Shown: positions 27,327-44,204 of the stretch, piece after piece
How positions within the stretch are numbered: position 1 is the first letter of the stretch
Layout: every line of letters starts with the position of its first letter
Origin: Rhizobium sp. CF080
Lineage (GTDB): Bacteria > Pseudomonadota > Alphaproteobacteria > Rhizobiales > Rhizobiaceae
Direction of reading: 5' to 3'
Assembly (NCBI RefSeq): GCF_000282095.2
Contig: NZ_AKKC02000004.1
Span: forward strand, 1,736,001-1,800,000
Length of the DNA: 64,000 nucleotides
Program-made: the position numbers and the translations under genes
The notes under the pieces: generated by a model
Seen by the model: only the letters and a program-made list of their open reading frames with translations
Told to the model about the DNA's origin: nothing
Database searches by the model: none

Positions 27327-27599
27327 TCAAAAGGGCTCGCACCTTTGACCAGCATTCTTAAAATCGCTACCGAACGATTCCGCTAAGGAATAGGCATCGC
27401 CTAAGGGAGAGATACGGGCCTTCGTGGTAAACGAATCCGCCCCACGAGCCCAGACCATCGCGGCCTTCTGCGTGCCGTCTGAGCCTATCGCCTCTGCTTC
27501 GACGCTCAGCCCCCGAGACCAATCGGCAGCCGCGGCAGTCCGACTGGCAGCACGGCCGACGTGCCGAGAGACGTTGCGGTCGAGATCCCAGCCGCAGTC
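27327..27599 (-). pseudogene. DUF3313-like lipoprotein, C-terminal fragment with frameshift
   Basis: Two frames join to read ...SLGTSAVLPVGLPRLPIGLG and then LSVEAEAIGSDGTQKAAMVW followed by ARGADSFTTKARISPLGDAY, which resembles the C-terminal part of DUF3313-type lipoproteins. The break is one base at about 27505. There is no start; the upstream end stops at a TAG near 27600. The fragment abuts the cpxA-like gene on the same strand. The family call is tentative. Confidence 0.4.
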
Positions 27600-27722: not shown

Positions 27723-28988
27723 TCAGATCGGTCGAAACACAAGCGTTATATCCAGGCCACCGTGGGCATTGATGGCCGCTCTGACGCTGCCGCCATGGAG
27801 CTCGATTGCCCTTTTGGTGATGGCTAGACCTAGGCCGTGTCCTGGTACAGACGTTTGTTCGGCTAAGCGTAAGAATGGTTCGAAGATTAAATTCAGCTCA
27901 GTTTGCGAAACACCTGGACCACGGTCCGAGACACATAGGTGCAACGCGGAGTTGATAGTCATCGCCTTTAAGGTTACCGTGGAACCGTCAATGGTGTATT
28001 TAATCGCGTTGCGGACGACGTTCTCAATAGCTCGATAGATGAGTTCTCCATCGACCCGCGCGATGAAGGTTTCCACGCCTTCCAGCCTGACCGCAACTCC
28101 CCGCGCTTGCGCCTCAAAGGAAGCGTCATCGACAATGTCGTTTGCCAGGTCGAGGATATCGATTGTCTGTCGTTCGAGCGGCCGGTCAGACGTGCTCAGC
28201 CTTGCCAAAGTGAGGATCTCCTCAACGAGAAGATCCAAGCGTTCTATCTCCGTGTCCATTCTCGAGAGCATCGCATCTAGGCGGGCTGGATTCTTCCTGA
28301 GGACGCCGGTAGCTGCCTGCAAGCGTGACAGCGGTGAACGCAACTCATGGGAAACATCGTGAAACAACCGTTTTTGGCTATCTTGCAGCTCTTGCAGGCG
28401 GTTCGCCGTGACGTTAAAGTCATCTGCCAGCGCGCTGATCTCATCCTCCCGGCGGATGGAGCGACGATCAATCCGGTATGAAAATACACCGCTCGCCAAT
28501 GAGCTCAGTCCGTGCCGAAGCTCTTCAACCGGGCGCAGCAATTGCCGCACCAGCCAGTAGGCAGAGCCTAAACTGCTGACGACCGCCGCAAACCACGGCA
28601 AACCCTGCACAAAATAGTCGCTGAGTACGCTTCCCTGGAATGGGGAAGCCGAGACGCGATAGCAGGCTCCGCGGTACGCCGCGGTGCGCATATAGCGCTC
28701 CGCAGCTTCTCTAACGCAGATATCCGATTCTGGGAGTCGAGTGATCGTGAGAGCTACCGGATTTTCCCCCTTTCTAATCGCCTCAGTGTACTGTGTCGCG
28801 AGATCGATCCCCATGGTTGACAGGGTTTGAGCAGCCAAATCCAAGCTCGACTGGGCAACAACCTCATAACGATCCTTCTTCGGTGGAAGGAAGTCAAACA
28901 ACACGTTAAGGCTCATGACTGCCACCAACGTGGAGGTCAAGGCCAACCATACAACCAAGAAAAACTTCCAGAAGAGACGGCGCATCAA
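27723..28988 (-). CDS. cpxA: CpxA-like sensor histidine kinase
   Basis: A 421-residue membrane kinase: a first membrane segment at 7-30, a periplasmic domain of about 100 residues, a second segment near 128-147, HAMP (RRSIRREDEISALADDFN), the H-box FHDVSHELRSPLSRL with the phospho-acceptor His near residue 210, N-box VVRNAIKY, G1 DRGPGV and G2 GHGLGLAI. This is the EnvZ/CpxA group that senses envelope stress. Its ATG overlaps the regulator stop (ATGA). Together with the quartet boxes at its own divergent promoter this supports a Cpx-type role. Confidence 0.9.
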   Translation of the reverse strand: MMRRLFWKFFLVVWLALTSTLVAVMSLNVLFDFLPPKKDRYEVVAQSSLDLAAQTLSTMGIDLATQYTEAIRKGENPVALTITRLPESDICVREAAERYMRTAAYRGACYRVSASPFQGSVLSDYFVQGLPWFAAVVSSLGSAYWLVRQLLRPVEELRHGLSSLASGVFSYRIDRRSIRREDEISALADDFNVTANRLQELQDSQKRLFHDVSHELRSPLSRLQAATGVLRKNPARLDAMLSRMDTEIERLDLLVEEILTLARLSTSDRPLERQTIDILDLANDIVDDASFEAQARGVAVRLEGVETFIARVDGELIYRAIENVVRNAIKYTIDGSTVTLKAMTINSALHLCVSDRGPGVSQTELNLIFEPFLRLAEQTSVPGHGLGLAITKRAIELHGGSVRAAINAHGGLDITLVFRPI

Positions 28989-29677
28989 GGGTCCTGCACC
29001 AGTTGGTATCCCTGTCCGCGAACCGATTGGATCCAGGATTGTCCATCTTCACGCAAACCCAGTTTCTGCCTGACACTGCTGATATGCACGTCGATCCGGC
29101 GGTCAAATGGCGTCAAGGGACGTCCGAAGGCTTTTTTGGAAATTTCCTGTTTCGACACGAGTTGACCGGCGTTGCGGGCAAGAACTTCAAGCAGATTAAA
29201 CTCTGTCCCTGTCAGCTCAAGCGGACGAGCATGCCATTCAGCGCTTCTCAGTGAGGGCTTCAAGACGAGATCGCCAACTTTCAGTAGGTCGTCGCCCGCC
29301 TCGTTCCCCTCCAAGCGGTTCGTGCGACGAAGAATCGCCCTGATCCGCGCCGCCAGCTCACCGGGCGAACAGGGCTTTGCAACGTAATCGTCGGCCCCCA
29401 GGTTGAGACCCGAAATCCTATCCACATCATCGCCGCGCGCCGTGACCATCAAAATCGGCACGCTACTCACGCGCCTTATCCGCTGCAAGACTTCGATTCC
29501 GTTCATCCTAGGCATCATGATATCCAGCAGGATGATGTCTACGGTGCCATCGGACGCCTCGGAGATAGCGCGTCTGCCATCATCCGTGGTCAGGACCTCG
29601 AAACCTTCGTCCGAAAAATATTCCTTTAGCAGTGCCGTTAATTCAAGGTCGTCGTCAATGATCAGCACCTTTGTCAT
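28985..29677 (-). CDS. cpxR: CpxR-like response regulator
   Basis: A 230-residue OmpR-class regulator, close to CpxR in length and sequence (opening MTKVLIIDDDLELTALLKEY). Phospho-acceptor Asp in IILLDIMMPRMNG near residue 51, conserved Lys in AKPCSPGE, winged-helix domain about 130-228 ending VRGQGYQLV. ATG 29675-29677 is chosen because GGAGGAT lies upstream; a longer in-frame extension has no site. In gammaproteobacteria CpxR binds GTAAA-N5-GTAAA, and exactly this spacing is seen upstream at 29741 and at four other sites in the window. Confidence 0.9.
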   Translation of the reverse strand: MTKVLIIDDDLELTALLKEYFSDEGFEVLTTDDGRRAISEASDGTVDIILLDIMMPRMNGIEVLQRIRRVSSVPILMVTARGDDVDRISGLNLGADDYVAKPCSPGELAARIRAILRRTNRLEGNEAGDDLLKVGDLVLKPSLRSAEWHARPLELTGTEFNLLEVLARNAGQLVSKQEISKKAFGRPLTPFDRRIDVHISSVRQKLGLREDGQSWIQSVRGQGYQLVQDP

Positions 29678-29740: not shown

Positions 29741-29776
29741 TTTACCTAACTTTACACTCTCTTGACCGCACTTAAC
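29741..29776 (+). promoter_or_regulatory. CpxR-like quartet element A (cpxRA / efflux divergent promoter)
   Basis: TTTAC 29741, TTTAC 29751, TTGAC 29762, TTAAC 29772 (spacing 10, 11, 10). The third repeat, TTGACC, doubles as a -35, with TGTTAG (29785-29790) 17 bp on as -10, giving a start about 25 bases before the efflux gene ATG (29823). The complement of the first two repeats is a CpxR consensus box. Confidence 0.8.
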
Positions 29777-29822
29777 ACAGGCACTGTTAGTTGAAAGGGC
29801 CAACTGTCATCAGAGAGCATGC

Positions 29823-31277
29823 ATGGGTCAATATCCTATTCGGCGGCCAATAAAGCTTGCCATTATCGTCGCCATCGCCCCGCTTACCGGTTGCGTGAGC
29901 CTCGCCTTCCAACAGAATGCTCCCGTTCCGATCGCCCAGTACTGGCACGCGACGCTTCCTCATGATGGCAAAACCAGCGATCTTGTTGCGTGGTGGGGGA
30001 CATTTCATGATCCTGCACTGACAACGTTGCAGCTGGCAGCTGAAACTAGCAGCCCTGATCTGGCGACAGCCTGGGCCAATATACAAAAGGCACGGGCTAC
30101 GCTTGCGAGCGCCAGAGCAGGTTTTTTTCCTTCGTTGACGGGGACGGCTTCCGCGACGCGCTCTGGTACTGAAGGCGACAAAACCAACGAGATTGCCGCC
30201 TCGACCACCGGCAGCGGAGGTATGGACGCGTCTTGGGAGATCGATCTTTTTGGAAAGTTACGTCGACAGGCCGACGCCGCCGCTCATCGGGTCGCGGAGG
30301 AAGCCGCGAATTGGCATGATGCCCGGGTCTCGTTGGCGGCTGAAGTCGCGGATTACTATGTGCAGTATCGTGCCTGCAGGCAGATCGAAAGAAGTTACAG
30401 CGAAGAACTAGCTTCTCAACGCCAGACGATAAGAGCGACACAGACGGCAGCGGCGTCAGGCCTTACCTCATCAGCGGATCTCGCTTTGGCTCAGGCAAGT
30501 GCGGCGAGTTCGTCTTCGACGCTGACGTCTCAGACGTCTGAATGCGAGGTTCTGATTAAAACACTGGCCGAACTTACCGGCGGCGACGAACCACAGCTCC
30601 GGATCGTCCTGAAGCAAGGGAACTCGAGTATCCCTTCTCCGTCCACGTTTGCTGTCAGGACGCTTCCTGCCGACATGGTGCGGCAACGGCCAGATGTCGT
30701 TTCGCTTGAGCGAGAGCTGGCTGCTACTGCCGCGGAGGTAGGTGTCGCCCAGGCAGATTTTTATCCGAGCCTTTCACTGGGTGGTTCAATCACCATCAAT
30801 CAGTCCAGCCTTACCGGAACGTCAATACCTTGGTCATTTGGACCGTCTCTCTCCATTCCCGTCTTCGACCAAGGCCAGCGCCGCGCCGCCTTCGACACTG
30901 CCGTCGCCGGCTACCAGATCGCATTCCAGTCTTATCGGAGCGGCATCCTTGGCGCGGTAAGCGAAGTCGAGACTGCGCTCATTCGGATCGATGCGACGCG
31001 CCGCAGGATCGGTGACACATCAGTCGCCGCAAAGAATTACCGAGCGTACTTCGCGGCAATTGACGAGAACTGGCGGGCCGGCGGAGCCAGTCTCCTCGAC
31101 AGGGAAGAGGCGCGCCGTTCGGCACAATCCGCCGAGATCAGCCTGATCGAGGTCCGGCGCGATGCCGTGCGTTACTGGATCGCACTTTACAAGGCTTTAG
31201 GCGGTGGATGGGGGAACGCGGCTGCGAAGACAATCACGCAGAAGGTGGCTGCCACCACAAAGGGAAATGTTCCGTGA
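29823..31277 (+). CDS. NodT-family outer-membrane efflux lipoprotein (copy 1)
   Basis: A 484-residue TolC-like outer-membrane factor. Lipoprotein signal ending LTGC (Cys near residue 24), then the paired coiled-coil/beta OEP repeats, with SWEIDLFGKLRRQADAA near 135 and RQRPDVVSLERELAATAAEV near 285, which are NodT-family signatures. It provides the exit duct for the MFP and RND subunits encoded next; its stop overlaps the MFP GTG start by 4 bases. Transcription is probably driven by quartet element A under CpxR-like control. Confidence 0.92.
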   Translation: MGQYPIRRPIKLAIIVAIAPLTGCVSLAFQQNAPVPIAQYWHATLPHDGKTSDLVAWWGTFHDPALTTLQLAAETSSPDLATAWANIQKARATLASARAGFFPSLTGTASATRSGTEGDKTNEIAASTTGSGGMDASWEIDLFGKLRRQADAAAHRVAEEAANWHDARVSLAAEVADYYVQYRACRQIERSYSEELASQRQTIRATQTAAASGLTSSADLALAQASAASSSSTLTSQTSECEVLIKTLAELTGGDEPQLRIVLKQGNSSIPSPSTFAVRTLPADMVRQRPDVVSLERELAATAAEVGVAQADFYPSLSLGGSITINQSSLTGTSIPWSFGPSLSIPVFDQGQRRAAFDTAVAGYQIAFQSYRSGILGAVSEVETALIRIDATRRRIGDTSVAAKNYRAYFAAIDENWRAGGASLLDREEARRSAQSAEISLIEVRRDAVRYWIALYKALGGGWGNAAAKTITQKVAATTKGNVP

Positions 31278-32365
31278 AGTTAAATTACTTGAGATTTGCA
31301 CTGGGCTTTGCCTTGTCCGTCTGGCCACTGGGCGTGACTACTGTCGCCTTTGCCCAGGATGCGTCGACAATGCCTGAGGCCGCTGTCCTTACAGTCACAG
31401 TCGTCAAACCGCAAAAACGGGACTGGGCTCAAACGATTCCGGCAAGCGGCTGGCTTGCAGCCTGGCATGAGGCCATCATCGCGGCCGAAACCGGCGGGCT
31501 TCGCATCACCGACGTGCTCGTCGACGTTGGCTCAGTGGTGAAGAAAGATCAGGAGCTAGTGCGGCTATCGAACCAAAGCGTACTTGCAGACCTCAGGAAG
31601 CAGGAAGCAGCGGTTGCAACCGCAAAAGCCAATCTGGCGCAGGCAAAGGCGAATGCCGATCGGGCTCGCCAAGTAAAGGGGTCAGGCGCGCTGTCTGACC
31701 AACAGGTGAACGAGTATCTCATTACGGAGGAGACCACCGAGGCCTCGGTGGCCTCTGAGGAAGCCGGTCTCCAAAGCCAAAAAATCAAGCTGGAGCAGAC
31801 CACAATCAGGGCCGTTGATGACGGCATCATTTCCTCTCGTTCGGCAACCCTTGGTACCGTCGTCTCTTCCGGATCTGAATTGTTCCGGTTGATCAGGCAG
31901 CAGCGGATCGAATGGCAAGCGGAAGTTTCGGCCCAGTATTTGCCGGAACTCGAAACGGGGATGTCCGCAGTCATCAATGGACCCAGGGGCCAGATCATCA
32001 AGGGTACCGTGCGTCTCATCGGACCGACGATCAGCACGGATTCCAGCCGGGCCATCGTCTACGTCGAGCTTCCGAATATCGCCGGGCCGCGGGTCGGTCT
32101 CTATGCCACTGGTTCAATCGAGCTGGGACGGAGCGCCGCTCTAACGGTGCCTGAGACTGCACTCGTGTTCAGGGACGGGATGAATTACGTCTTTACGCTC
32201 AATGCAGACAATCGGGTGGCGCGCATCCGCGTCGACGTCGGACGCCGGCTGGATGGCGAGGTCGAGGTGCTTTCAGGTGTCGAGGCGGACCTCGACGTCG
32301 TTGAGGCCGGTGGAGCCTTTCTTTCTGATGGTGCGCTGGTGAAGGTTGAAAAGGCAAATCAATGA
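31274..32365 (+). CDS. RND efflux periplasmic adaptor (membrane fusion protein)
   Basis: A 363-residue HlyD/AcrA-type adaptor starting at GTG 31274, which overlaps the preceding stop. Signal peptide to about residue 29 (VAFA), lipoyl halves flanking a coiled-coil hairpin at about 95-160 (alternating Lys/Glu/Ala with KANLAQAKANADRARQ), and a beta-barrel then membrane-proximal domain. It bridges the inner-membrane RND pump and the outer-membrane factor. Four-base overlap with the pump gene. Confidence 0.92.
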   Translation: MKLNYLRFALGFALSVWPLGVTTVAFAQDASTMPEAAVLTVTVVKPQKRDWAQTIPASGWLAAWHEAIIAAETGGLRITDVLVDVGSVVKKDQELVRLSNQSVLADLRKQEAAVATAKANLAQAKANADRARQVKGSGALSDQQVNEYLITEETTEASVASEEAGLQSQKIKLEQTTIRAVDDGIISSRSATLGTVVSSGSELFRLIRQQRIEWQAEVSAQYLPELETGMSAVINGPRGQIIKGTVRLIGPTISTDSSRAIVYVELPNIAGPRVGLYATGSIELGRSAALTVPETALVFRDGMNYVFTLNADNRVARIRVDVGRRLDGEVEVLSGVEADLDVVEAGGAFLSDGALVKVEKANQ

Positions 32366-35300
32366 ACATTTCCGCCTGGTCCATTCGCAATCCCGTTCCA
32401 TCAATCCTGCTTTTCGTCCTTTTGACAGTTTGCGGTCTACTCGCCTTTGAAAGGCTTGCCGTCCAAAACTTTCCTGACATGGACTTACCGACGATCAAGA
32501 TCTCGGCCACATTGGAAGGAGCAGCGCCATCGCAGCTGGAAACCGAAGTCGCGCGAAAGATTGAAGATGAGCTGGCCACACTCAGTCGGCTCGATCACAT
32601 CACCACCACCATTACCGATGGATCGGTACAAATCAACGTCTCGTTTGAGCTCGAGAAAGACTCGGAACAAGCGCTTAACGAGGTTCGCAATGCTGTCGAC
32701 AGTGTCACCGGCGATCTGCCGCCGGAAATGAACTCACCGACCGTTTCAAAGGTAAGTGTTCAATCCTCTCCGCTCCTCACCTACGCTGTCCGCTCTACAA
32801 AGCTCAATGAAACCGAGCTGTCCTGGTTCGTCGACAACGACATGAAAAAGGCACTTCTGAAGGTTGCGGGTGTCGGTGACGTCAGCCGACTAGGCGGCAT
32901 CGACCGCGAAGTCCATGTAGATCTCAATCCCGTGATCATGACATCTCTTGGCCTGACTGCATCCACTGTCTCCACCCAGCTCAAGGCTGTCCAGGTAAAT
33001 ACGTCGGGGGGGCGAGGCGAGATCGGCGGAACGCGACAGACGATCAGGACGATAGGCGCGGTATCTTCGATCGAAGCGCTGTCGGCGCTTCCTATACCGC
33101 TGTCAAACGGCAAACGAATCCGACTGGATGAGATAGCAACCGTAACAGACAGTTTCTCGGATCGGTCGTCGCTCGCTTATTTGGACGGGCAGCCAGTGAT
33201 TGCCGTTGAGGTAAAACGCTCAAACGGGTTTTCAGACACGGCCGTAGCGGAAGGCATCCAAGAGGCGATGAAAGCGTTCGCGGCAAACCACCCTGAAGTC
33301 GATGTAGTGCAAGCGTATACAACGGTGACGCCCGTCGTGAATAATTACGAAGCGTCGATGGACATGCTGTACGAGGGCGCGTTTCTTGCAGTCGTCGTCG
33401 TTTGGCTCTTCTTGCGGGACTGGCGGGCGACAATTCTCTCGGCTGTTGCACTTCCGCTTTCGGTAATCCCCACTTTTCTTGCAATGTATTTTGCGGAGTT
33501 CAGCCTCAATACGGTCTCCCTCCTCGCGTTGTCCTTGGTGGTTGGTATTTTGGTCGACGACGCGATCGTCGAAGTAGAAAATATTGCCCGCCACCTGCGA
33601 ATGGGCAAATCCGCCATGGATGCGGCGCTTGAGGCGGCCGACGAGATCGGATTGGCCGTTATCGCAACCACGTTCACCCTAGTCGCCGTATTTCTGCCCA
33701 CAGCTTTTATGAGCGGCATCCCCGGCCTGGTGTTTCGCCAATTCGGTGTCACAGCGGCTGTTGCTGTTCTGGCATCGCTCCTGGTGGCCCGCTTCCTCAC
33801 GCCGATGATGGCTGCCTACATTATGAAACCTCACGGCGAAGAGAAGCCCGACGGGTGGCTCATGCGTACCTATTTGAAAGCTGTTCGTGGATGCCTTCGG
33901 TTCCGAAAGCTAACCGTCGTCGGCATCGTCATATTCATGGCCATTTCACTATCTGTGATTCCGTTTCTGGAAACAGGGTTCTTCCCAGCATCAGATGACT
34001 CGCAAACCAAAGTCACCTTGACCCTACAGCCCGGCAGCCAAATCCAAACAACTGATGTTTTGGCGCGTCGCGCTGCGGAGATCGTCAAGACTGTCCCGGA
34101 CGTGGTGGCAGTTTTCGTCGCCGTCGGGACTGCTTCCAGCGGTGGTGGCCTTGACGCGTCCACCTCTTCGGACACCGCTTCAGCGACCCTTGTGGTCAAC
34201 CTTACGCCTTTAGATGATCGCGATCGCGCTCAGAGTGCGATTGAAGGCGATATCCGACGCGCCCTTGCTGTCTTGCCGGGCGCAAGGGTCGAAGTCGGAT
34301 CTGGAGGAAGGGGCACGACGCTGGAAATTACCCTTGCGAGCGACGATGCAGACGCGCTCGATCAAGCGGCAACATCGGTTGAGAAAGACTTACGCATCCT
34401 AAGCGGCATCGGAGCCATCACCTCCAGCGCCTCATTGCAGGCACCAGAAATACAAATCGTTCCAGATTTTGCACGGGCGGCTGCACTTGGAATCACGTCG
34501 GAAGCTATTGCTGACGTTGTTCGTGTGGCGACGAATGGGGACTACTCCTCGTCATTGTCGAAGCTAAATCTGCCACAACGGCAAATCGCTATCCGGGTGA
34601 GGTTGAAGCCCGAGATGAGAACCGCCATTGAATCGATCTCGCAGCTGCGTGTAAGTGGTACAAATGGCAGCGTTGCACTCGGATCGATAGCGGACATACG
34701 CATAGGTGGAAGCTCATCTGAAATCGACCGCCTCGATCGCGAACGCAACGTCACCCTATCGATCGAGCTGAACGGACGTGCTTTGGGCGATGTCAATCAG
34801 GAAGCGCGAGCGCTACCTGCGATGAAAAGCCTGCCGAGCGGTGTCCATGTCGTTGAACAAGGAGAGCTCCAGCGCATGTCGGAGATGTTCGAAAGCTTCG
34901 GTATCGCCATGGCAATCGGGGTGTTTTGCATATACGCCGTGTTGGTCCTCCTGTTCCATGACTTTCTCCAGCCCGTCACCATTCTCATGGCTCTCCCGCT
35001 AGCTCTTGGAGGAGCGCTGGTACCACTGCTGTTGACCGATACCACCTTCTCGATGCCAGCTGTCATTGGTTTGTTGATGCTGATGGGGATCGTGACAAAA
35101 AACTCCATCCTACTTGTTGAGTATGCCATCATGGCCCGTCGGCAGGGGATGGAGCGTTTCGAAGCGCTCATTGATGCGTGCCACAAACGGGCTCGGCCCA
35201 TTATCATGACGACCATAGCCATGGGCGCAGGCATGATGCCGGTTGCTCTGAGCCTGAGCGGGGGCGACTCAAGTTTCCGTCAGCCGATGGCGATCGTGGT

Positions 35301-35451
35301 TCTCGGGGGACTGATTACCTCAACCTTTCTCAGCCTTGTGGTGATACCAGTCGTGTTCACGTTCATCGACGATCTGTTGCAGATCCTGATGAAGCCGTTC
35401 CGTCGGAATGTGGCTGTGCAGCCGTCGTCAGACGCCCAGGTTTCCCATTGA
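32362..35451 (+). CDS. RND multidrug-type efflux pump (HAE1 class)
   Basis: A 1029-residue proton-driven inner-membrane pump, normal length for the AcrB/MexB class, with twelve membrane segments in two clusters and two large periplasmic loops. Membrane-embedded acids lie in VVGILVDDAIVEVENIARHL (near residue 395), and LMGIVTKNSILLVEYA near 915 is also diagnostic. The short opening MNISAWSIRNPVPSILL resembles heavier-solute pumps such as those for organic compounds; no metal-binding Met ladder is seen, so drugs, bile-like or plant phenolics are likelier than metals. Confidence 0.93.
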   Translation: MNISAWSIRNPVPSILLFVLLTVCGLLAFERLAVQNFPDMDLPTIKISATLEGAAPSQLETEVARKIEDELATLSRLDHITTTITDGSVQINVSFELEKDSEQALNEVRNAVDSVTGDLPPEMNSPTVSKVSVQSSPLLTYAVRSTKLNETELSWFVDNDMKKALLKVAGVGDVSRLGGIDREVHVDLNPVIMTSLGLTASTVSTQLKAVQVNTSGGRGEIGGTRQTIRTIGAVSSIEALSALPIPLSNGKRIRLDEIATVTDSFSDRSSLAYLDGQPVIAVEVKRSNGFSDTAVAEGIQEAMKAFAANHPEVDVVQAYTTVTPVVNNYEASMDMLYEGAFLAVVVVWLFLRDWRATILSAVALPLSVIPTFLAMYFAEFSLNTVSLLALSLVVGILVDDAIVEVENIARHLRMGKSAMDAALEAADEIGLAVIATTFTLVAVFLPTAFMSGIPGLVFRQFGVTAAVAVLASLLVARFLTPMMAAYIMKPHGEEKPDGWLMRTYLKAVRGCLRFRKLTVVGIVIFMAISLSVIPFLETGFFPASDDSQTKVTLTLQPGSQIQTTDVLARRAAEIVKTVPDVVAVFVAVGTASSGGGLDASTSSDTASATLVVNLTPLDDRDRAQSAIEGDIRRALAVLPGARVEVGSGGRGTTLEITLASDDADALDQAATSVEKDLRILSGIGAITSSASLQAPEIQIVPDFARAAALGITSEAIADVVRVATNGDYSSSLSKLNLPQRQIAIRVRLKPEMRTAIESISQLRVSGTNGSVALGSIADIRIGGSSSEIDRLDRERNVTLSIELNGRALGDVNQEARALPAMKSLPSGVHVVEQGELQRMSEMFESFGIAMAIGVFCIYAVLVLLFHDFLQPVTILMALPLALGGALVPLLLTDTTFSMPAVIGLLMLMGIVTKNSILLVEYAIMARRQGMERFEALIDACHKRARPIIMTTIAMGAGMMPVALSLSGGDSSFRQPMAIVVLGGLITSTFLSLVVIPVVFTFIDDLLQILMKPFRRNVAVQPSSDAQVSH

Positions 35452-35481
35452 TCGGCAGGTTAGGTCCACGCGGAGAAGACA

Positions 35482-36735
35482 ATGCGGACAGTGGCTATGT
35501 CTTTAGGTAAACTCGGTCACCTCAGGGAAAAGAACCGACCACACTTAAGCTTCGTCGGGCTGGTGTGCCTGATGTTGATTGGGTGCACCACGGCCCGGGA
35601 ACCGTATTCGGAGGCAGACGCGAATAAGGCGCAAATCGCGGGATTTGAAAACGTCCGCGCTCCCTTGGACGGCGAACTCAGCGTCTTTGTTAAGAAGAAG
35701 TTCCAAAGGACGCGGCCTGACGTACCCCTGAAATATCTTGCGATCTCTGGCGGTGGAGCGGGAGGTGCGTTTTCAGTCGGCGTTCTCAAGGCTTGGTCAG
35801 AGCGCGGCGATCGACCGACCTTTGATCTCGTCAGCGGCGTCAGCACTGGAGCCTTGATTGCGCCTTTTGCGTTCTTAGGGCCGAAATATGACTCAGTCTT
35901 GGAGCATCTCTACACGAGCGGCGTGGCGGCAGAGCTGATCGACCGAAAATTTATCGTAAGGGGCCTGTTGGGTGAAAGCCTCTATTATCAAAAGCCGTTG
36001 AGGCAGATGGTGGAGATGTATGTAGACCAACCTCTCCTTGATGAAATTTCCGCGGAGTACCGGAAGGGACGCAATTTGTTTGTCCTGACGACGAACCTCG
36101 ATACTCAGCGTGCTGTCCTTTGGAACATGGGCGCCATTGCGAACAGCTCTCAACCGGACGCGCTCAGCCTATTCCGGAATGTCCTGATCGCGTCAGCAAG
36201 TATCCCGGGGGCCTTTCCCGCGGTGCGGATCAAAGCAGTGGTTGACGGGCGGCCCATCGTCGAGATGCATTCCGACGGAGGCCCGTCCGCTCAGATTATG
36301 ACCGTGCCGGAAGCTATCTTGTCAGACGTCAGCCTACCAGTTCCTGCGGGAGTTCGCGGATCCGACATGTATCTATTGATCAACAATACTTTGACTCCTG
36401 AGTTTTCTGTCACCGCGAACTCGACCCTTTCGGTCAGCACGCGCGCATACTCGATCCTCGTGAAGTCCCAGACCCGCCAGTCACTGTATGCCGTCTACGA
36501 ATATTGCCGCCGAGTTGGGATCGGATTCCATATGGCCGCTATCGACGTTGCAGTGCCCTATACTATGAGCGACCCTTTCAACAACGACTACATGAGGGCT
36601 GTTTTCAAGATTGGCTATGACAGGATGTCGAACGGGCGGTTGTGGCGAGATCGACCTGTCTTTCCCTCCATGGCTAGTAGCGGGAGCCCCTTATTCGAAC
36701 CGAAGATGGTTCAGCAACCTGCCGGCGTGCGCTGA
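35482..36735 (+). CDS. Patatin-like phospholipase lipoprotein
   Basis: A 417-residue patatin. Lipoprotein signal ends LIGC (Cys near residue 35). The catalytic set is complete: the oxyanion loop SGGGAGGAFSVG near 92, nucleophile Ser in GVSTG near 120 and the dyad Asp in SDGGPSA near 265. It would hydrolyse acyl lipids at the cell envelope. GGAGA precedes ATG 35482, only 30 bp after the pump gene, so it most likely belongs to the same Cpx-controlled operon. A phospholipase lipoprotein at the end of an RND operon is unusual. Confidence 0.88.
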   Translation: MRTVAMSLGKLGHLREKNRPHLSFVGLVCLMLIGCTTAREPYSEADANKAQIAGFENVRAPLDGELSVFVKKKFQRTRPDVPLKYLAISGGGAGGAFSVGVLKAWSERGDRPTFDLVSGVSTGALIAPFAFLGPKYDSVLEHLYTSGVAAELIDRKFIVRGLLGESLYYQKPLRQMVEMYVDQPLLDEISAEYRKGRNLFVLTTNLDTQRAVLWNMGAIANSSQPDALSLFRNVLIASASIPGAFPAVRIKAVVDGRPIVEMHSDGGPSAQIMTVPEAILSDVSLPVPAGVRGSDMYLLINNTLTPEFSVTANSTLSVSTRAYSILVKSQTRQSLYAVYEYCRRVGIGFHMAAIDVAVPYTMSDPFNNDYMRAVFKIGYDRMSNGRLWRDRPVFPSMASSGSPLFEPKMVQQPAGVR

Positions 36736-37036
36736 GACCGAAGCTTGTACCGTCGGGAGTTTTCCGGCACAGCGGGCGCTTGCCGATCACGGGCAGATCA
36801 TGTTGTCGGCATCCGGCAAGGCATCGGATGTCATCGAAAGTTTTCGTGTCGGTAAAAGCGGGGTGGTACGCGTCGGTGGCACGCCGTTTTTCATGGATGC
36901 ACTGATCGCAGGCATAATCGCCGAGTTCCAGAACTTGAACCCAGATGCGCGGGTCGACCGGAGTTGCGGCTACTTCCCTGATCTGCGTGCGGCGCTTCAT
37001 GCCGATCAGATCGACCTAGGCTCAGGACTCGTTAAA

Positions 37037-37426
37037 TCACATCCAGAAGATGACGGCTGCAGCGATGCATATGCTTGAGAAATAGGTGTGTGCGCAGCGG
37101 TCGTATCTGGGGTGAATCCGCCTCCAGTCCTTGAGCCTGCCGAACATGTTTTCGATCTTGTGGCGCTTTTTGTAGAGCGTCGGATCATGTGGGATGACGC
37201 TCTTGCGGTTTGCCCGAGATGGAATGCAGGCCGTGATCTTGCGTGCGGCCAAGGCGTCTCGAAACCAGTCGGCGTCATAGCCCTTGTCGGCCAATAGGGT
37301 CTTGGCCTTGGGAAAGGCGGCGAGCATTTTCGCTGCCCCTTTGTAGTCGCTCATCTGCCCTTCGCTCAGAAGCAGGATGAGCGGTCGACCATGACCATCG
37401 CAGACGGCATGCAGCTTGGAGTTCAA
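37037..37426 (-). CDS. IS5/IS427 transposase, second frame (OrfB)
   Basis: A 129-residue frame with the catalytic C-terminal parts of an IS5 DDE transposase: LLADKGYDADWFRDALAAR and YKKRHKIENMFGRLKDWRRI (the conserved Y-(2)-R-(3)-E-(6)-K signature). It is expressed as a fusion by a -1 slip from the upstream frame. Confidence 0.88.
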   Translation of the reverse strand: MNSKLHAVCDGHGRPLILLLSEGQMSDYKGAAKMLAAFPKAKTLLADKGYDADWFRDALAARKITACIPSRANRKSVIPHDPTLYKKRHKIENMFGRLKDWRRIHPRYDRCAHTYFSSICIAAAVIFWM

Positions 37427-37791
37427 TCCACCTTTGGTGCGTCCGATACGTCGGGGAACATCCCCTTTTTTAGCAGACTGGCTGCGGTGCGGTGGGCTTT
37501 CAAGTGGGTCGCGTCGATCATCAACTGCTCGGGCCTGCCGCGTCTAGCGGTCAGTTCGGCCAAAATCCGGTTGAACACGCCGAGCCTGCTCCAGCGGATG
37601 AAGCGGTTGTAGATCGTCTTGTGCGGGCCATATTCCTTGGGCGCGTCGCGCCACCGTAGCCCGTTGGGTAAAACGAAAATAATGCCGCTCAAAATCAGTC
37701 GATCGTCAACGCGCGGAATACCGTGGGACAGCGGGAAGTACGGCTCGATCCGACGCATCTGCGCCTCCGACAACAACAGCAAATCACTCAT
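37423..37791 (-). CDS. IS5/IS427 transposase, first frame (OrfA)
   Basis: A 122-residue frame (MSDLLLLSEAQMRRIEPYFP..., GLRWRDAPKEYGPHKTIYNR, first catalytic Asp in LMIDATHLKAHRT). Near its end the run of six A then four G (sense strand) is a slippery site: a -1 shift converts KKGMFPD into KKGDVPRRIGRTKGGLNSKL and enters OrfB. Programmed frameshifting is known for this group. Confidence 0.88.
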   Translation of the reverse strand: MSDLLLLSEAQMRRIEPYFPLSHGIPRVDDRLILSGIIFVLPNGLRWRDAPKEYGPHKTIYNRFIRWSRLGVFNRILAELTARRGRPEQLMIDATHLKAHRTAASLLKKGMFPDVSDAPKVD

Positions 37792-38462
37792 CGCAGGGCT
37801 CCTTTCGATCCGAATGAATCAAAGCCACCGCGACGCTGCAAGCTATTTAATGGCTCCTGAGCCTAGCCATTTGCCCGATCAATATACTCGACGAGGGTTC
37901 AGGACTCAAGTTCAAGCAAATCCTCCCGGGACGCAATGTCGTCCCTGCCGGGTCACTCATCCGCTGTTGTTAAAGCGGCGACCGCAGCCCCCTCACCTCC
38001 TCGATTTTCCCTGGATCGCGCCACCCCCCGGCAGTCCGCTGCTTGCCGACCTGCGCAGGATGCAGCTCTCTTTCGCCTCGAAAATCAAGATCCGCTATTC
38101 GGGAGGCTCGTTGATGAGTGTCATCAACTATATGAAGCGGCAGACGCGTTGCCGATCATGCCCCACAGCGTGGTCTTTGCGCTCCGCAATGATAAGTCAG
38201 TCACGGCACTGCCGATCACGATTCCCCACCCTGAGCGGGCGCTTGGGCTTTTGAAACGTTCTGACGCGTCGCGTGTGCCTTCCGTTGAGCGGTTTGCCGG
38301 CCATATCCAGTCATCCTTTGAAGACTTAAGGCACCTGATCAAACGCCACGAACAAGCCGTCGTCTGGGGAGCTTGAATGGTAGCTGACAGACAGGAGGCG
38401 CCCCTTTCCAACCCGATGGAACTGCACGACCTTCGTTCGATGAAGAACATCAAGATCCAAAT

Positions 38463-38498
38463 TTTACCCAACTTTACCCGACCTTTGCAGCACTTAAC
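38463..38498 (+). promoter_or_regulatory. CpxR-like quartet element B
   Basis: TTTAC 38463, TTTAC 38473, TTTGC 38484, TTAAC 38494, spacing 10, 11, 10. A -10-like GCCTAT begins at 38507, 17 bp after the third repeat. The gene downstream starts at 38584. Confidence 0.78.
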
Positions 38499-38583
38499 AT
38501 TCGTTCGCCTATTCTTTTGATCGAATCGCTAGTTGCTACCCCTCCCCTGAGCTGACGTCAGGGCGGACCAAAGAGTGTCAACG

Positions 38584-38826
38584 ATGAGAATGAAATGGGC
38601 TTCAATCCCTCTGATGATCGCAGCGCTTGCCTTCGTCCTTTATGTCGGCGGCATCGACCGGCGGGAACGCATCGCTCGCTACCCATGCAGTCTCGATTCG
38701 GAGGGTCGGTGCAACGGGCCATTGTCGATGATGCCAACCGGCAAGCTGCCTCAGCCAGGTGATAACTGGTATAGCTGGACAAGCGGAACTCTGAGCGTCC
38801 TTCCCAGGCAACTCCTTCCAAACTGA
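38584..38826 (+). CDS. Small membrane-anchored protein behind quartet element B
   Basis: An 80-residue protein with an N-terminal membrane anchor or signal (MRMKWASIPLMIAALAFVLY) and a short periplasmic domain with two Cys (YPCSLDSEGRC) and a WYSWTSGTLSV motif. The latter faintly resembles YWIQCSCSSGTLAV in the protein at 39004. A GTG at 38575 in the same frame is a possible earlier start. The quartet element 85 bases upstream suggests Cpx-type control. Function unknown. Confidence 0.6.
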   Translation: MRMKWASIPLMIAALAFVLYVGGIDRRERIARYPCSLDSEGRCNGPLSMMPTGKLPQPGDNWYSWTSGTLSVLPRQLLPN

Positions 38827-38920
38827 TTTTTCCCCTCTTGCTGCTGTGTGAGGCCACATCCGCGGCGGCGGTATCGGCTCGCGCATGGCCGGTGGGCACC
38901 CTTTCGAAAGCCTCGGCTCT

Positions 38921-38956
38921 TTTACCCAATTTTACCTAGCCTTTACGCTGCTTAAC
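38921..38956 (+). promoter_or_regulatory. CpxR-like quartet element C
   Basis: TTTAC 38921, TTTAC 38931, TTTAC 38942, TTAAC 38952, spacing 10, 11, 10; GCTACT at 38966-38971 could be the -10. ATG of the next gene is at 39004. Confidence 0.8.
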
Positions 38957-39003
38957 ATTGGACCCGCTACTTAAATTAGCGACCCAACTATGGAGCCAGT
39001 CGA

Positions 39004-39360
39004 ATGCATAGCGGACTGCACACATCCAATTCGCTAAGAGGCCTTCCTCCGCGCCGAGGCGTAAAGCATCTGTTCAGGAGCCGGCTGATTCTCCTGATCA
39101 CAGGGATGCTCGCTCCTGTCCTGCCGACGGCAACATTCGCTGACGGCGGCGCAACCGAGACCACTCCGCTGTTCCAGGTCGGCTCTAGAGCCTCTGACGC
39201 AGGCACGGGGTATTCTCTATTTAGAGGACCGCTGCACGGCTCTAAAGACTATTGGATTCAGTGCTCCTGTTCGAGCGGGACATTGGCCGTCAAATCCTGT
39301 CCTTCGTTGAGCTACAAGTGTTTTTGCGCTGACCAGCCCGCGATATCTTGCAACCAATGA
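39004..39360 (+). CDS. Small Cys-rich secreted protein
   Basis: A 118-residue protein with a long basic leader and a hydrophobic core at about 28-43 (LILLITGMLAPVLPTATFA), so the mature part is about 70 residues. The C-terminus is Cys-rich (DYWIQCSCSSGTLAVKSC, then YKCFCADQPAISC), seven Cys in the last 36 residues, suggesting disulfides. Its stop overlaps the ATG of a polysaccharide-export gene (ATGA), so the two are translationally coupled. It lies 47 bases behind quartet element C. I know no family for it. Confidence 0.65.
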   Translation: MHSGLHTSNSLRGLPPRRGVKHLFRSRLILLITGMLAPVLPTATFADGGATETTPLFQVGSRASDAGTGYSLFRGPLHGSKDYWIQCSCSSGTLAVKSCPSLSYKCFCADQPAISCNQ

Positions 39361-40664
39361 TTTGCCTGCCGCGTAACCTCGCTATTCTTGATTCCCCCCG
39401 CTCCAGGAGCTGCGGCTCAACAAGGCTACCGTCGGCAAATGGCGGTGCACCAGCGTCTTGCAATCGCAAGCGCTTCGCACCTTTCTTCACGGCGGCGATT
39501 TTTTCTTGCCGACAGCTAATGCTGTCGGTTCCCTTGGGGCTTTGTGGCTGCGAGGTATTTTCCTCCTCAGCTCTCAAGGAAGCCGCCCTCGTGAAGGATG
39601 CCGGCCGGCGGGCATCCGAGCTGAAACGACCATCCCCTACGATCTTCGAAGCCGTTGAAGTGGACCTGCGGATTACCGAGATTGTCGAAAGGCACAATCA
39701 AACTGTCCACTGGGCCGGAATCCGCGACGCAGCGCTGCTCGTGCCGCGTTTAGGTACTGGAGACGAGTTAAGCGTTGAAATCTTCGAAGCGTCTTCCCAC
39801 GGACTGTTTTCCAGCGGTAGGAAGAAATCGATCTCTTTTGACGTCGAGGTATCCGACAAAGGCACCATCGACGTCCCTTATGCCGGGGCGGTTGTGGTCG
39901 CAAACTCCACTCCGGAAGAGGCACGTCAAGCGGTGCGTCGTGCTCTGGTCAACAAAGCGGTCGACCCGGACGTCGTTCTGGGAATCAGGCAAGTCCGATC
40001 ACGCCCTATTACCGTCGCAGGCGACGTCGCGCATTCTGGCGTACTGCAGCTGCCAATGATCCCGGAACGCCTTACCCAGACGCTTGCAAGAGCCGGGGGA
40101 AGCCAACATGCGCCGTTTCAATCGACGATAACGTTGGTGAGGGGAAAAACGGTCGTGGCCATGAGCCTTCAATCCATCATCGAGACGCCTTCGCAGAACT
40201 TGCACCTGATCCCTAATGACAAAATCTTCGTGTCGTTCCGGCAGGGGAGCTTTATTGCCATGGGCGCCGCACGAGCTGACCGCTACCAGCTGCCAGCAAG
40301 AGACGTCAGTCTTTTGGAGGCAATTGCTCTTGCAAGTGGCAGCAGCGACAAGCTTTCGACCGCCAAAGCTTTCTTCCTCTTCCGACTTGAAGACGAAACC
40401 ACGGTAGAGGCGATCATAGGAAAGCCAAAATTCAGTTCACTCCGCTCTATCGGTTATTCCCCGAATTCGGAAGGCCGATACCCGTTCGTATATATCTTTC
40501 ATGCCGGTTCTGCCGGCAATCTGTTTGTCGGCCAGAGGTTCAAGGTCGTAAACGGCGACGTACTCTATTTTTCAGGTCATCCCGATCAAGACAACGGCGG
40601 ACTTGGAGTGATCTTTGCGCAAAGCCTAACGCTCGCCTCGAAAGCCGCGTCAGTGAGCGACTAA
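39357..40664 (+). CDS. Polysaccharide export protein (Wza/ExoF type)
   Basis: A protein of up to 435 residues. The poly-export domain (LLVPRLGTGDELSVEIFEAS near residue 125) is followed by SLBB-type repeats (RPITVAGDVAHSGVLQLP near 220 and GSFIAMGAARADRYQLPA near 300). It would form the outer-membrane exit of a capsule or exopolysaccharide. The start is uncertain: ATG 39357 couples to the previous stop but gives a long odd N-terminus before a lipobox-like LGLCGC near residue 70; ATG 39519 lies directly before that lipobox but yields a very short signal. Confidence 0.78.
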   Translation: MICLPRNLAILDSPRSRSCGSTRLPSANGGAPASCNRKRFAPFFTAAIFSCRQLMLSVPLGLCGCEVFSSSALKEAALVKDAGRRASELKRPSPTIFEAVEVDLRITEIVERHNQTVHWAGIRDAALLVPRLGTGDELSVEIFEASSHGLFSSGRKKSISFDVEVSDKGTIDVPYAGAVVVANSTPEEARQAVRRALVNKAVDPDVVLGIRQVRSRPITVAGDVAHSGVLQLPMIPERLTQTLARAGGSQHAPFQSTITLVRGKTVVAMSLQSIIETPSQNLHLIPNDKIFVSFRQGSFIAMGAARADRYQLPARDVSLLEAIALASGSSDKLSTAKAFFLFRLEDETTVEAIIGKPKFSSLRSIGYSPNSEGRYPFVYIFHAGSAGNLFVGQRFKVVNGDVLYFSGHPDQDNGGLGVIFAQSLTLASKAASVSD

Positions 40665-40783: not shown

Positions 40784-41401
40784 TCAGCGCAGCTCCTCCA
40801 TTCGTTCGATAGAACGAGAAAATCCTCTGAAGGAGACCCGGAAGACCAGGTCTTCATTTGAGGCAAAGGAGGTGGCGCTGATCATAAGACCTTGTGCAGC
40901 TTTCATGATGTTCAAGTTGATGTTGGACATTCTGAGAAGAACAAGGCAGCCGTCAGGTAGACAGGTCGCAACACCTGCATGTTGTTCGGCGGGTTGCGTG
41001 TCGAGTTTTAAGCGCACGCCCTCAGATAAGTTTAGGCCGAGCGGCATCCTGATCAGTACTCTCGTGCCCCCCTCTTCAGAAGGGTAGACCTGAATTGCAA
41101 ACACAACCATGCCCGTCTTCGGATCTTCATGAAATTGACTCGCGGCGCATCGCTTGCCGGCATCGACGACTATGCACTCAACCCCCCAGTCGTCGTATTT
41201 TTCTTTTACCCCACTCTCGCCGTTCAGGAGCTGTTCGGTCGAGGCCTCCGTTCTGGCGCGGCGATCAGTCTCACCGGAGGCTTTATGTCCTCTTTCCAAT
41301 CGCCATGAAGGCCCATCCATGGTTCTTCGTTCGGCCGCTCCTTCTGCAGCCAAACTAGGGAACAAGAATAGTGCGAATACACTCATCAGCCTTAGTAGCA
41401 A
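40784..41401 (-). CDS. IalB-family (invasion-associated locus B) protein, copy 1
   Basis: A 205-residue exported protein. TTG 41399-41401 is taken as start because GGGAGGA lies 6 bases upstream and gives a basic residue before the signal core (MLLRLMSVFALFLFPSLAAE). The IalB core runs from about residue 65: KYDDWGVECIVVDAGKRCAA, MVVFAIQVYPSEEGG, IRMPLGLNLSEGVRLKLD and CLPDGCLVLLRMS. The paired Cys are characteristic. IalB proteins are periplasmic or outer-membrane and linked to host-cell or envelope fitness. Divergent from the regulator at 41635; a paralogue is at 48206. Confidence 0.88.
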   Translation of the reverse strand: MLLRLMSVFALFLFPSLAAEGAAERRTMDGPSWRLERGHKASGETDRRARTEASTEQLLNGESGVKEKYDDWGVECIVVDAGKRCAASQFHEDPKTGMVVFAIQVYPSEEGGTRVLIRMPLGLNLSEGVRLKLDTQPAEQHAGVATCLPDGCLVLLRMSNINLNIMKAAQGLMISATSFASNEDLVFRVSFRGFSRSIERMEELR

Positions 41402-41634
41402 ACAGGATCCTCCCGAAGGTACTCACTCGAGGGTCTATAGTCACCCTATTCGTAGTTCCGGCGTCGCTCTTGGGTCTTCGACCTTCGTCCTCGACTACCA
41501 GGCGCCATACTCAGGTTACGGATTTTATCAGCACAGGTTTTCTCAGCGATGTCAGAACATTTCTGGAGGTTTCCCATTGGAAAAACTCAGCCTGAAGCTC
41601 GCCGTGAGTTCGGAAATTATCAAAGGTGAACAGT

Positions 41635-42396
41635 ATGGACCATATCCTAATCGTCGATGACGACCCCGAGATCCGAAGGCTGTTAGCGCGATATCTTTCA
41701 GATCAAGGGTTTCGTGTTACTGCGGCGGCAAGCCGCCGGGAATGCGACAGGTGGATCGACACCAGCAGACCCGACCTTATCGTACTTGACGTATTGCTTC
41801 CGGACGGTTCCGGCCTAGATATCTGCAAGAACTTGCGCGCGAGCCGGTCCCACATTCCCGTTATCCTGCTGACCGCATTGAAGGAGGAGGTTGATCGCAT
41901 CATTGGCCTGGAATTCGGAGCAGACGACTATCTTAGTAAGCCATTCAATCCGCGAGAACTAACTGCAAGGATCAGGGCAGTCTTGCGTCGAGCGGCTCAC
42001 GCCAAGAGCGCCGAGAGCGAAGCCAGAGTCTTTAGCTTCGCAGAATTCATCGCCGACACGGGCACGCGGCGGGTTCACAAGTTCTTCGGCGCCGAAATCG
42101 AGTTGACCGGAGCCGAGTTCGACCTTTTAGTGGTCTTCCTGGAGAAGCCGGGCCGCCTGCTGTCACGAGATCGCTTGCTTGACCTGACTCAAGGGCGCAA
42201 GAGCGAACCTATGGAACGGTCGATCGATGTGCTGGTAAGCAGGCTGCGGCGCAAGCTCGGCCAAACCGAAGCCGGCCCCTTGTTCCGGACGATCCGAAAC
42301 GGCGGTTACCAACTCACCGTTCCGGTTAAGGCAGGCATTCCGGACGGCGGTGCCAGCGTTACCGCTCTTGCAAGCGGAAAAGCTCACTCCAGATAA
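41635..42396 (+). CDS. OmpR-family response regulator (paralogue 2)
   Basis: A 253-residue regulator starting at ATG 41635 (AAAGGTGA site). Receiver: DDD at 9-11 region, Asp in IVLDVLLPDGSG, Lys in SKPFNPRE; winged-helix with FRTIRNGGYQLTVPV. It is nearly collinear with the regulators at 13801 and 46882. There is no kinase gene next to it, so it may be driven by the kinase at 45635. It is divergent from an IalB-family gene. Confidence 0.92.
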   Translation: MDHILIVDDDPEIRRLLARYLSDQGFRVTAAASRRECDRWIDTSRPDLIVLDVLLPDGSGLDICKNLRASRSHIPVILLTALKEEVDRIIGLEFGADDYLSKPFNPRELTARIRAVLRRAAHAKSAESEARVFSFAEFIADTGTRRVHKFFGAEIELTGAEFDLLVVFLEKPGRLLSRDRLLDLTQGRKSEPMERSIDVLVSRLRRKLGQTEAGPLFRTIRNGGYQLTVPVKAGIPDGGASVTALASGKAHSR

Positions 42397-42526: not shown

Positions 42527-42562
42527 TTTACCTAACTTTACATGCACTTTACCGCGCTTAAC
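42527..42562 (+). promoter_or_regulatory. CpxR-like quartet element D
   Basis: TTTAC 42527, TTTAC 42537, TTTAC 42548, TTAAC 42558, spacing 10, 11, 10; GCTATC at 42572-42577 could be the -10. The nearest gene is the NodT-type protein at 42711. Confidence 0.8.
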
Positions 42563-42610
42563 GTTGGCTTCGCTATCCAGAACTCACCGTCCCTTGTTCT
42601 GGAGTCGACC

Positions 42611-42718
42611 GTGCTGATCACCGATCGGAAATTTCCCTCAAGGCCTCGCTGCCCGCTTGTGGCCATCATTCCCGTCTCCTGGTTGACTACGCTCAGTTCA
42701 GGTGACCGACATGCATGA
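42611..42718 (+). other. Possible leader peptide ORF in the 5' region of the NodT-type gene
   Basis: GTG 42611 after a GGAG opens a 35-codon frame (MLITDRKFPSRPRCPLVAII...) whose TGA at 42716-42718 overlaps the start region of the downstream gene. A 7-bp hairpin (CCAGAAC / GTTCTGG) lies just before it. Evidence for translation is weak. Confidence 0.25.
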
Positions 42719-44204
42719 GCGCCTCTGCGTGCAGAATAAAACGATCCGTGGATGCGTCACGAGCCGGACTGCACTATTGCTCTTCACGCTGGTGTTAAGT
42801 AGCTGTGTGGTCGGACCCGACTACGAAAGCCCCAAGCCGCTTTTGCCGGCAAGCTGGAACTCCAGAAAAGACAAGGCGTCATCCAGGCCACCCGAACTGC
42901 ACCAGTGGTGGAAACGTCTGCAAGACCCGGTTTTGAACGATCTTGTCGCCCGGGCGGTTCAGGGAAACCTGGATGTTGCTACTGCAAAAGCGAAAATTCG
43001 AGAAGCTCGCGCTACAACGCAAGAACAGGTCGGGGGTCTGTTTCCCACCCTGTCTTCCTCAGGTTCAACGTCCCGCAGTCGAAGCACCGGATCTTCGGTC
43101 AATAACCAATATCAGGCGGGTTTCGATTCCAGTTGGGAGATTGATCTTTTCGGGGCCAACAGGCGTGCGATCGAGGCCGCAAAATATGGCGAGGAAGCGT
43201 CCGAAGCGGAACTTCGCGATACGCTCGTCACATTGGTCGGTGACGTAGCTGCCTACTACGTACAGGTTCGCGAGTATCAGGAATTGATCGAGTTGGCCGA
43301 GAGGTCCGCTAAATCCCAGCGACAGACCGCAAGCCTTACAAGAGAGCTGCAAAAGGCCGGAGAGGTCACCGAAGGCGACGTCGCGAAGGCAGAGGCACAA
43401 GCAGCTTATACCGAAGCCGATATTCCCTCCTACCAGACTTCTTACGCACAGTCCGTCCATCGCCTCAGCCTGCTCCTGGGCCAATCTCCGTCAGCTCTCG
43501 ATGAGGTGCTCACGATGAGGAAAAAGATACCGTTGCCGCCCAAACCAACTTCATTGGGAATCCCTGCTGACCTTCTTGTCAACCGGCCTGATGTCCGCGT
43601 TGCAGAACGTCAGCTGGCTCAATCCACGGCTCGCATTGGTCAGGCTCAGGCCGACCGATATCCGTCTATTGGCCTGACTGGTTCAATCGATTCTTCAGCA
43701 GGCAGTCTAAGCGACTTAGGAAGGAACTCGACGGTCGGCTGGTCGCTTGGGCCAAACATAACCATACCGCTTTTCCAGGGCGGCCGACTAAAGGCTGCAG
43801 TCGATGTCGCCAAGGCCCAGCGTGACCAATATCTGATTGCGTATCAATCAACCATATTGTCCGCGATGGAAGACGTTCAGAACGCGATCATTGCAACCAA
43901 TCAGTCTCGATTAAAGCAGTCGAAACTCGCGCTATCGGCGATGCGATTTCGAAGAGCCTTACAGGTCTCAAGAGAGCTTCACCAAGCTGGTGTCACTGAT
44001 TTCTTCACCATCCTCGACACCGAGCGCTCTCTGTATTCCGTCGAAGAGGATCTGATCGAGACCCGCTCAGACGTCGCGACGTATTACATCGCTCTTCACA
44101 AGGCTCTCGGTGGGGGATGGGATGGAGAGATCGATGCGTCGAAACCGGCAACAATCGACGTCGGCGAAGAGCCGCATCTCATACGGGCAAAAAGGGGCGG
44201 GTAG
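42711..44204 (+). CDS. NodT-family outer-membrane efflux lipoprotein (copy 2)
   Basis: A 497-residue outer-membrane factor. Lipoprotein signal with Cys in LSSCVVGPDYESP (near residue 32), OEP repeats with SSWEIDLFGANRRAIEAAKY and NRPDVRVAERQLAQSTARIG. ATG 42711 has CAGGTGA upstream; GTG 42702 is an alternative. It is related to but clearly different from the copy at 29823. No adaptor or pump follows, so it would serve a pump encoded elsewhere or replace the copy at 29823. Quartet element D lies 150 bases upstream, placing it in the Cpx-like regulon. Confidence 0.9.
   Translation: MHERLCVQNKTIRGCVTSRTALLLFTLVLSSCVVGPDYESPKPLLPASWNSRKDKASSRPPELHQWWKRLQDPVLNDLVARAVQGNLDVATAKAKIREARATTQEQVGGLFPTLSSSGSTSRSRSTGSSVNNQYQAGFDSSWEIDLFGANRRAIEAAKYGEEASEAELRDTLVTLVGDVAAYYVQVREYQELIELAERSAKSQRQTASLTRELQKAGEVTEGDVAKAEAQAAYTEADIPSYQTSYAQSVHRLSLLLGQSPSALDEVLTMRKKIPLPPKPTSLGIPADLLVNRPDVRVAERQLAQSTARIGQAQADRYPSIGLTGSIDSSAGSLSDLGRNSTVGWSLGPNITIPLFQGGRLKAAVDVAKAQRDQYLIAYQSTILSAMEDVQNAIIATNQSRLKQSKLALSAMRFRRALQVSRELHQAGVTDFFTILDTERSLYSVEEDLIETRSDVATYYIALHKALGGGWDGEIDASKPATIDVGEEPHLIRAKRGG

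Follow-up and report, generated by a model that had tools for sequence, protein, structure and literature searches.

A four-repeat TTTAC element, a CpxR-like regulator and a small family of predicted exported six-cysteine proteins in Rhizobium sp. CF080

Gene content of the locus

The window, a stretch of 64,000 nucleotides, belongs to the 7.05-Mb genome of Rhizobium sp. CF080. Comparison of its positions 15000-36000 with a plasmid collection gave 69 matching records, 66 of which were from Rhizobium. A two-component system is encoded on the reverse strand, including the CpxA-like sensor kinase HK1 (27723-28988), whose two top NCBIfam matches are CpxA models scoring under cutoff, and the CpxR-like response regulator RR1 (28985-29677), which was assigned from NCBIfam and PDB matches and from its likeness to RetPC57 of R. 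etli. The RND efflux operon (29823-36735, forward strand) was delimited from ORFs and domain matches, and encodes an outer-membrane factor, an adaptor, a permease and a patatin-like phospholipase. A secretin gene lies at 24051-25637.

Further along the forward strand are two small genes, p1 (38584-38826) and p2 (39004-39360). The former is an ORF for a small membrane or exported protein of 80 aa; the latter, identified as an ORF with relatives, encodes a 118-aa protein that is predicted to be exported and to have a C-terminal six-cysteine domain. The next gene (39357-40664, forward strand) encodes an outer-membrane polysaccharide export protein of the Wza/ExoF type, with Poly_export (PF02563, 1.4e-12) and SLBB_2 (PF22461, 9.9e-7) domains above their cutoffs. 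It starts with the ATG at 39357, forming an ATGA overlap with the TGA of p2 (39358-39360); the TTG at 39348 is also possible. With either start codon the second small ORF runs into this gene, as the initial annotation had stated. A lipobox-like LCGC stretch was seen by eye in its product, which is probably a lipoprotein. The window gene differs from other Wza/ExoF exporters (PF02563), sharing only 36-38% identity with its best four relatives in 397 genomes of the order, one of which is in its own genome. Beyond it are the genes of an IalB-family protein (40784-41401, reverse strand; PF06776, 2.2e-17) and of RR2 (41626-42396, forward strand), an OmpR-type response regulator by domain and NCBIfam matches with no kinase adjoining. 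Both are conserved neighbours of p2.

The quartet element

The element in front of these genes, here called the quartet, has the pattern TTTAC-N5-TTTAC-N6-TTTRC-N5-TTAACA. Five copies were found in the window at up to three mismatches, and the mean was 0.00 in 100 shuffles. Two of them, both on the forward strand and without mismatches, are the candidate operator/promoter elements of p1 (38463-38499) and p2 (38921-38957); the claim that each small gene has an element of its own was thus correct. Three more copies show that the quartet is not confined to this pair. The copy at 29741-29777 (forward, one mismatch) is located between RR1 and the RND pump operon and is oriented to the pump, and that at 42527-42563 (forward, one mismatch) stands 5' of the second NodT-type outer-membrane factor (42702-44204). 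The copy at 27046-27082 (reverse, two mismatches) probably drives the small membrane-protein gene at 26189-26551 (reverse); this target is supported by L119, where a homologue (53% identity over 77 aa) is likewise preceded by a quartet. The same five copies were the only ones in the whole 7.05-Mb genome at up to three mismatches, all within 15.5 kb around RR1/HK1, and the reversed-pattern control gave none.

The quartet was rare in the other collections. Among 394 genomes of the family, 14 exact copies were found in eight genomes, with no control matches. Scanning 57 genomes of the same genus with TTKRC as the third repeat gave quartets in seven at up to two mismatches, with one reversed-control match, and in six at up to one mismatch. 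Moreover, nine plasmid records, picked for carrying p2 or p1, contained 16 quartets at up to three mismatches and no control matches; some of these were located at RR1/pump loci. The 28 hand-picked sites (near-identical copies and a two-mismatch match in G007 were left out) all have TA at positions 48-49, which the pattern does not cover. Since the sites were retrieved by searching with the pattern itself or a relaxed version, only features outside the pattern, such as this TA, are independent of the choice. The promoter spacing implied by the TA is non-standard. In the titles and opening lines of abstracts among the papers listed for rhizobial CpxR or RetPC57, no description of a four-repeat element was found; it may be in print elsewhere.

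The regulator and its co-occurrence with the quartet

The top NCBIfam model for RR1 was PRK10955 CpxR (1e-75, 254.7 bits); the score is below the equivalog cutoff of 341 bits, so RR1 is not a formal CpxR equivalog. In the PDB, its C-terminal part best matched the CpxR DNA-binding domain 4uht (2.1e-26), which we take to be that of E. coli CpxR; with whole RR1 as the query at E 1e-40, RegX3 alone was listed. RR1 combines a receiver with a winged-helix DNA-binding domain that is nearest to CpxR among curated families, and the CpxA-like HK1 is encoded next to it.

RR1 matches at E 1e-60 or better, with 50 candidates scored per genome, were present in six of the 57 same-genus genomes, and these are the same six that have quartets at up to one mismatch. 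Identity to RR1 was 70-72% in the other five. The chance of such a coincidence would be 1 in 36,288,252 (57 choose 6) were the genomes independent, which they are not, and the figure is therefore a guide only. The quartet is located in the divergent promoter between RR1 and the pump in the window genome, G010, G029, G033 and G040; in G046 it lies directly 3' of HK1 and 5' of a DUF3313 gene. Among the seven other family genomes with exact quartets, five have RR1 and/or HK1 homologues within 1.5 kb on each side.

Some observations count against a common regulon. Neither RR1 nor HK1 was found within 1.5 kb on each side of the quartet in G782 and G246, and G007 has a two-mismatch quartet 5' of a patatin-like gene and no RR1 match at the cutoff used. 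Only one of the 13 plasmid records with p2, NZ_CP030763.1, also contained RR1 among the matches listed (of 128). In records named as strains TA1 and WSM1325, p2 and RR1 are carried by different plasmids; adjacent accession numbers lead us to guess the same of some other p2 strains. For C104, no RR1 record was among the matches listed, which also speaks against the regulon.

p2 and its relatives

Relatives of p2 were found in 13 of 72,556 plasmid records, all from Rhizobium, with 56-67% identity, plus one weak Bradyrhizobium match, and in four genome contigs, three from Rhizobium and one from Kaistia soli. The homology search proposed at the outset was therefore productive for this protein. Nine sequences were aligned, and the six cysteines, a GxGYS motif and the last glutamine were invariant. 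The initial annotation had counted seven cysteines in the last 36 residues; there are six. In the other 393 of the 394 family genomes p2 was not found (11 candidates were scored in most of the entries shown), which counts against the regulon. In the 397 order genomes the window genome and G158 alone gave matches better than E 0.002, with those between E 0.002 and 0.1 treated as noise. In the genus of G158, p2 was found in one of 14 genomes. No p2 relatives were confirmed in viral contigs.

The dN/dS of p2 between the window and six relatives was 0.25-0.33, and 0.18-0.24 after residue 47. Among the Rhizobium genes alone, leaving out one identical pair, the ratio was 0.36-0.57 overall and 0.29-0.89 beyond residue 47, which is weaker evidence. 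The G+C contents at codon positions 1/2/3 are 0.52/0.57/0.62 in p2, 0.55/0.53/0.64 in p1 and 0.61/0.44/0.62 in the RND gene; those of p1 and p2 are not typical of coding sequence here, as the low second position of the RND and Wza genes is missing. Neither p1 nor p2 matched any Pfam or NCBIfam model, and a search of PHROGs gave one weak match, from one of the nine p2 members. The AlphaFold2 model of p2 has a mean pLDDT of 55.8, rising to 81-84 per block at residues 81-118, which are modelled with strands only. Foldseek gave 177 matches to the PDB library for this model, none of them at E 0.001 or better. In 11 of the 13 Rhizobium plasmid records, whose gene tables are incomplete, the p2 gene is not annotated. 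The Kaistia soli relative (L117:5607-8189) has curlin-repeat and CsgH genes at a distance of about 1 kb, and no quartet was found in the surrounding 16 kb at up to five mismatches.

Taken as a whole, p2 is a real gene. It founds a small, unstudied family of proteins that are predicted from their sequences to be exported and that have six conserved cysteines.

p1 and its relation to p2

The search for p1 covered 100 genomes, plasmids and phages. It gave a single relative, on a plasmid of R. anhuiense, with 50% identity in two pieces, and the search was fruitful to that extent; no relative was found in the 99 other genomes or in the phage records. In the R. anhuiense copy the reading frame is interrupted, by a 1-base gap and by a stop codon in frame; a quartet with one mismatch is upstream, and a fragment of RR2 adjoins the copy.

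It had been proposed that p1 and p2 share an export signal and a W..SGTL.V motif, and might form a new family. An N-terminal hydrophobic segment can be seen by eye in each. In p1 there is no obvious signal-peptidase site, and the positive charge is greater after than before the segment, which makes its export doubtful. The motif is no family signature, for seven of the eight other aligned p2 relatives have SNGAL and the Kaistia one has ADFSL. The two proteins as paralogues of one family were rejected from this lack of SGTL conservation and from an hhalign probability of 0.1% over eight columns; novelty at the family level accordingly applies to p2 and not to the pair. As a member of the regulon p1 is poorly supported, and a spurious or remnant ORF is possible.

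The Wza-type gene and the neighbourhood of p2

The p2 neighbourhood was compared at 16 Rhizobium loci, from the 13 plasmid records (TA1 twice) and three contigs, counting pieces with at least 40% identity. The coverage of p2 was 1.0 at 15 loci and 0.84 in L092. IalB coverage was at least 0.90 and RR2 coverage at least 0.97 at all 16. A quartet was located 77-81 bp 5' of the p2 start at every locus, 15 of them exact and one with one mismatch. The secretin was full length at four loci. The Wza-type gene was a remnant with coverage of 0.10-0.23 at 14 loci, and was undetected at two. Since p2 and its promoter are kept at these loci, p2 outlives the polysaccharide gene. The genomes and plasmids compared in this work are related (several p2 alleles are alike, and TA1 occurs twice), and the cases counted are therefore not independent events.

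The proposed link of the small proteins to exopolysaccharide secretion thus lacks support, and coupling of p2 to polysaccharide export as a general rule can be ruled out from the state of the Wza-type gene at all 16 loci. The suggested co-occurrence analysis also failed to connect the two genes: a relative of the Wza-type protein at E 1e-20 or better was present in 143 of the 397 order genomes, and G158, which has a p2 match, is outside the 143. When the genome contigs were scanned for the Wza-type protein, no relative could be confirmed.

Comparison with R. etli RetPC57 and E. coli Cpx

The closest counterpart is the RetPC57/RetPC58-RetPC55/56-nodTc locus of R. etli CFN42. RR1 is 75% identical to RetPC57, the permease 72% and the adaptor 65%; whereas the kinase is just 49% identical, and nodTc shares 33% and 29% with the two outer-membrane factors of the window. 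Counted against a pattern widened to allow A in the third repeat, p42c has quartets 5' of nodTc (no mismatches) and RetPC56 (one mismatch). Both genes are activated by RetPC57. According to the available part of the R. etli report (PMC7769827), RetPC57 induction raised the RetPC56 reporter from 29 to 190 and the nodTc reporter from 43 to 1099, and deletion of RetPC57 lowered the in-planta expression of both genes; fewer nodules were formed by R. etli without RetPC57. The same part of the report also describes activation by RetPC57 of its own promoter (PMC7769827). The sole quartet between RetPC57 and RetPC56 is oriented to RetPC56, with none in the direction of RetPC57, so that the quartet does not account for self-activation in the manner proposed for RetPC56; this counts against the regulon. 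The term 'binding site' is absent from the paper, and no DNA site for RetPC57 was met in that part of its text; nor were p1, p2 or the Wza-type gene (PMC7769827).

The E. coli Cpx system (CpxR, CpxA, CpxP) is similar to RR1 in the DNA-binding domain. The site of E. coli CpxR is given in the accessible text of PMC2912261 as GTAAA-N5-GTAAA, and the TTTAC-N5-TTTAC half-sites of the quartet are this sequence reversed. Unlike that site, the quartet has four repeats at fixed spacing and the TA that was invariant in the 28 chosen sites. The LTxxQ motif, described as characteristic of CpxP (PMC2912261, in the portion available), was absent from p1 and p2 by eye.

A candidate envelope regulon and alternative readings

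The quartet probably serves a regulator of the RetPC57/CpxR type as its promoter/operator, with p1 and p2 in the envelope regulon of that regulator. This assignment is drawn from the co-occurrence of quartet and RR1 in six genomes and from the quartets before RetPC57-activated genes. It agrees with the earlier idea that a common switch, probably of a stress type, controls the envelope proteins, as the quartet co-occurs with a CpxR-like regulator. HK1 would phosphorylate RR1, which would bind the TTTAC repeats, arranged in tandem at a spacing of about one helical turn, and bring RNA polymerase to the conserved promoter downstream. The regulon so switched on would include the RND pump operon, the second outer-membrane factor, the small membrane protein, p1, and p2 with the Wza-type gene that is coupled to it in translation. 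The p2 protein would then be exported, and its last 40 residues might fold into a disulfide-rich six-cysteine domain; it may serve as an accessory envelope protein upon sensing of envelope stress or plant contact, working without the Wza protein. We consider this reading as a whole, an RR1/HK1-driven quartet regulon including p1 and p2, with p2 an exported six-cysteine accessory envelope protein independent of Wza, to be quite probable. The sequence comparisons and the published R. etli data support the specificity of the quartet, its co-occurrence with RR1, the activation of quartet genes by RetPC57 and the conservation of p2; direct binding, the signal, export, the disulfides and the functions of p1 and p2 we infer. 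A further reading, which is less likely than not, would make p2 the founder of a family of exported proteins with six cysteines, carried on plasmids and induced by a nodulation regulator at plant contact; instead of taking part in polysaccharide export, these proteins would act at the bacterial surface or in the infection thread.

RR2 lies closer to p2 than RR1 does, is present beside it at all 16 loci and could co-regulate it, which weighs against the regulon. RR2 might even be the main regulator of p1 and p2, with the local quartet as its site, and the RR2 fragment next to the R. anhuiense p1 remnant fits this; but the best model is OmpR for RR2 and CpxR for RR1, all six same-genus genomes with quartets at up to one mismatch also have RR1 (co-occurrence was scored for RR1 alone), and the R. 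etli quartet genes answer to RetPC57. Control by RR2 is thus unlikely. The E. coli gfc and yjb operons encode small exported proteins ahead of export genes, and p2, whose stop codon in the window overlaps the ATG of an intact Wza-type gene (ATGA), might similarly be an accessory component of polysaccharide-export machinery. This role is very unlikely, given the 10-23% remnant or undetected Wza-type gene at all 16 Rhizobium loci where p2 and its promoter are kept, and given the order genomes, in which 143 of 397 have a Wza relative and p2 (better than E 0.002) is confined to the window genome and G158, the latter outside the 143.

It is more improbable still that p1 and p2 are both remnants or spurious ORFs with regulatory DNA in front of them by chance. 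Their rarity, the broken state of the sole p1 relative, the missing annotation of p2 in 11 of the 13 Rhizobium plasmid records (with incomplete gene tables) and the atypical codon-position G+C against the neighbouring genes would agree with it; the dN/dS of 0.25-0.33 against the window, the invariant cysteines and the Kaistia relative of p2 do not.

Under the RR1/HK1 regulon reading, the quartet is a specific and testable candidate operator for RetPC57, a regulator that affects R. etli nodulation, and it allows candidate regulon members to be listed across rhizobial genomes. Moreover, p2 adds a small, predicted envelope protein that is unannotated in most of the (incompletely tabulated) Rhizobium plasmid records.

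Degenerate genes and additional quartets

Several genes around these loci are in pieces. Two fragments within 36611-38376 of the window both correspond to a single LysR gene that is found on Rhizobium plasmids (L085, L088), and are separated by an ORF pair (37037-37791) that is transposase-like by eye. A DUF3313-type gene is broken into pieces in differing frames at 27149-27458 (reverse strand); a related gene is whole in L022, with a quartet in front, and similar-looking ORFs are found 3' of quartets in L121-L124. Two Rhizobium plasmids have an extra quartet 3' of the RND permease (L111:15541 and L113:9521), followed by a small ORF whose ends are similar and whose middle is variable. On plasmid pR132503 of WSM1325 (L112:10452-10928), RR1 is in pieces beside the pump and the quartet is kept with one mismatch; a full-length RR1 match of WSM1325 is located on a different plasmid.
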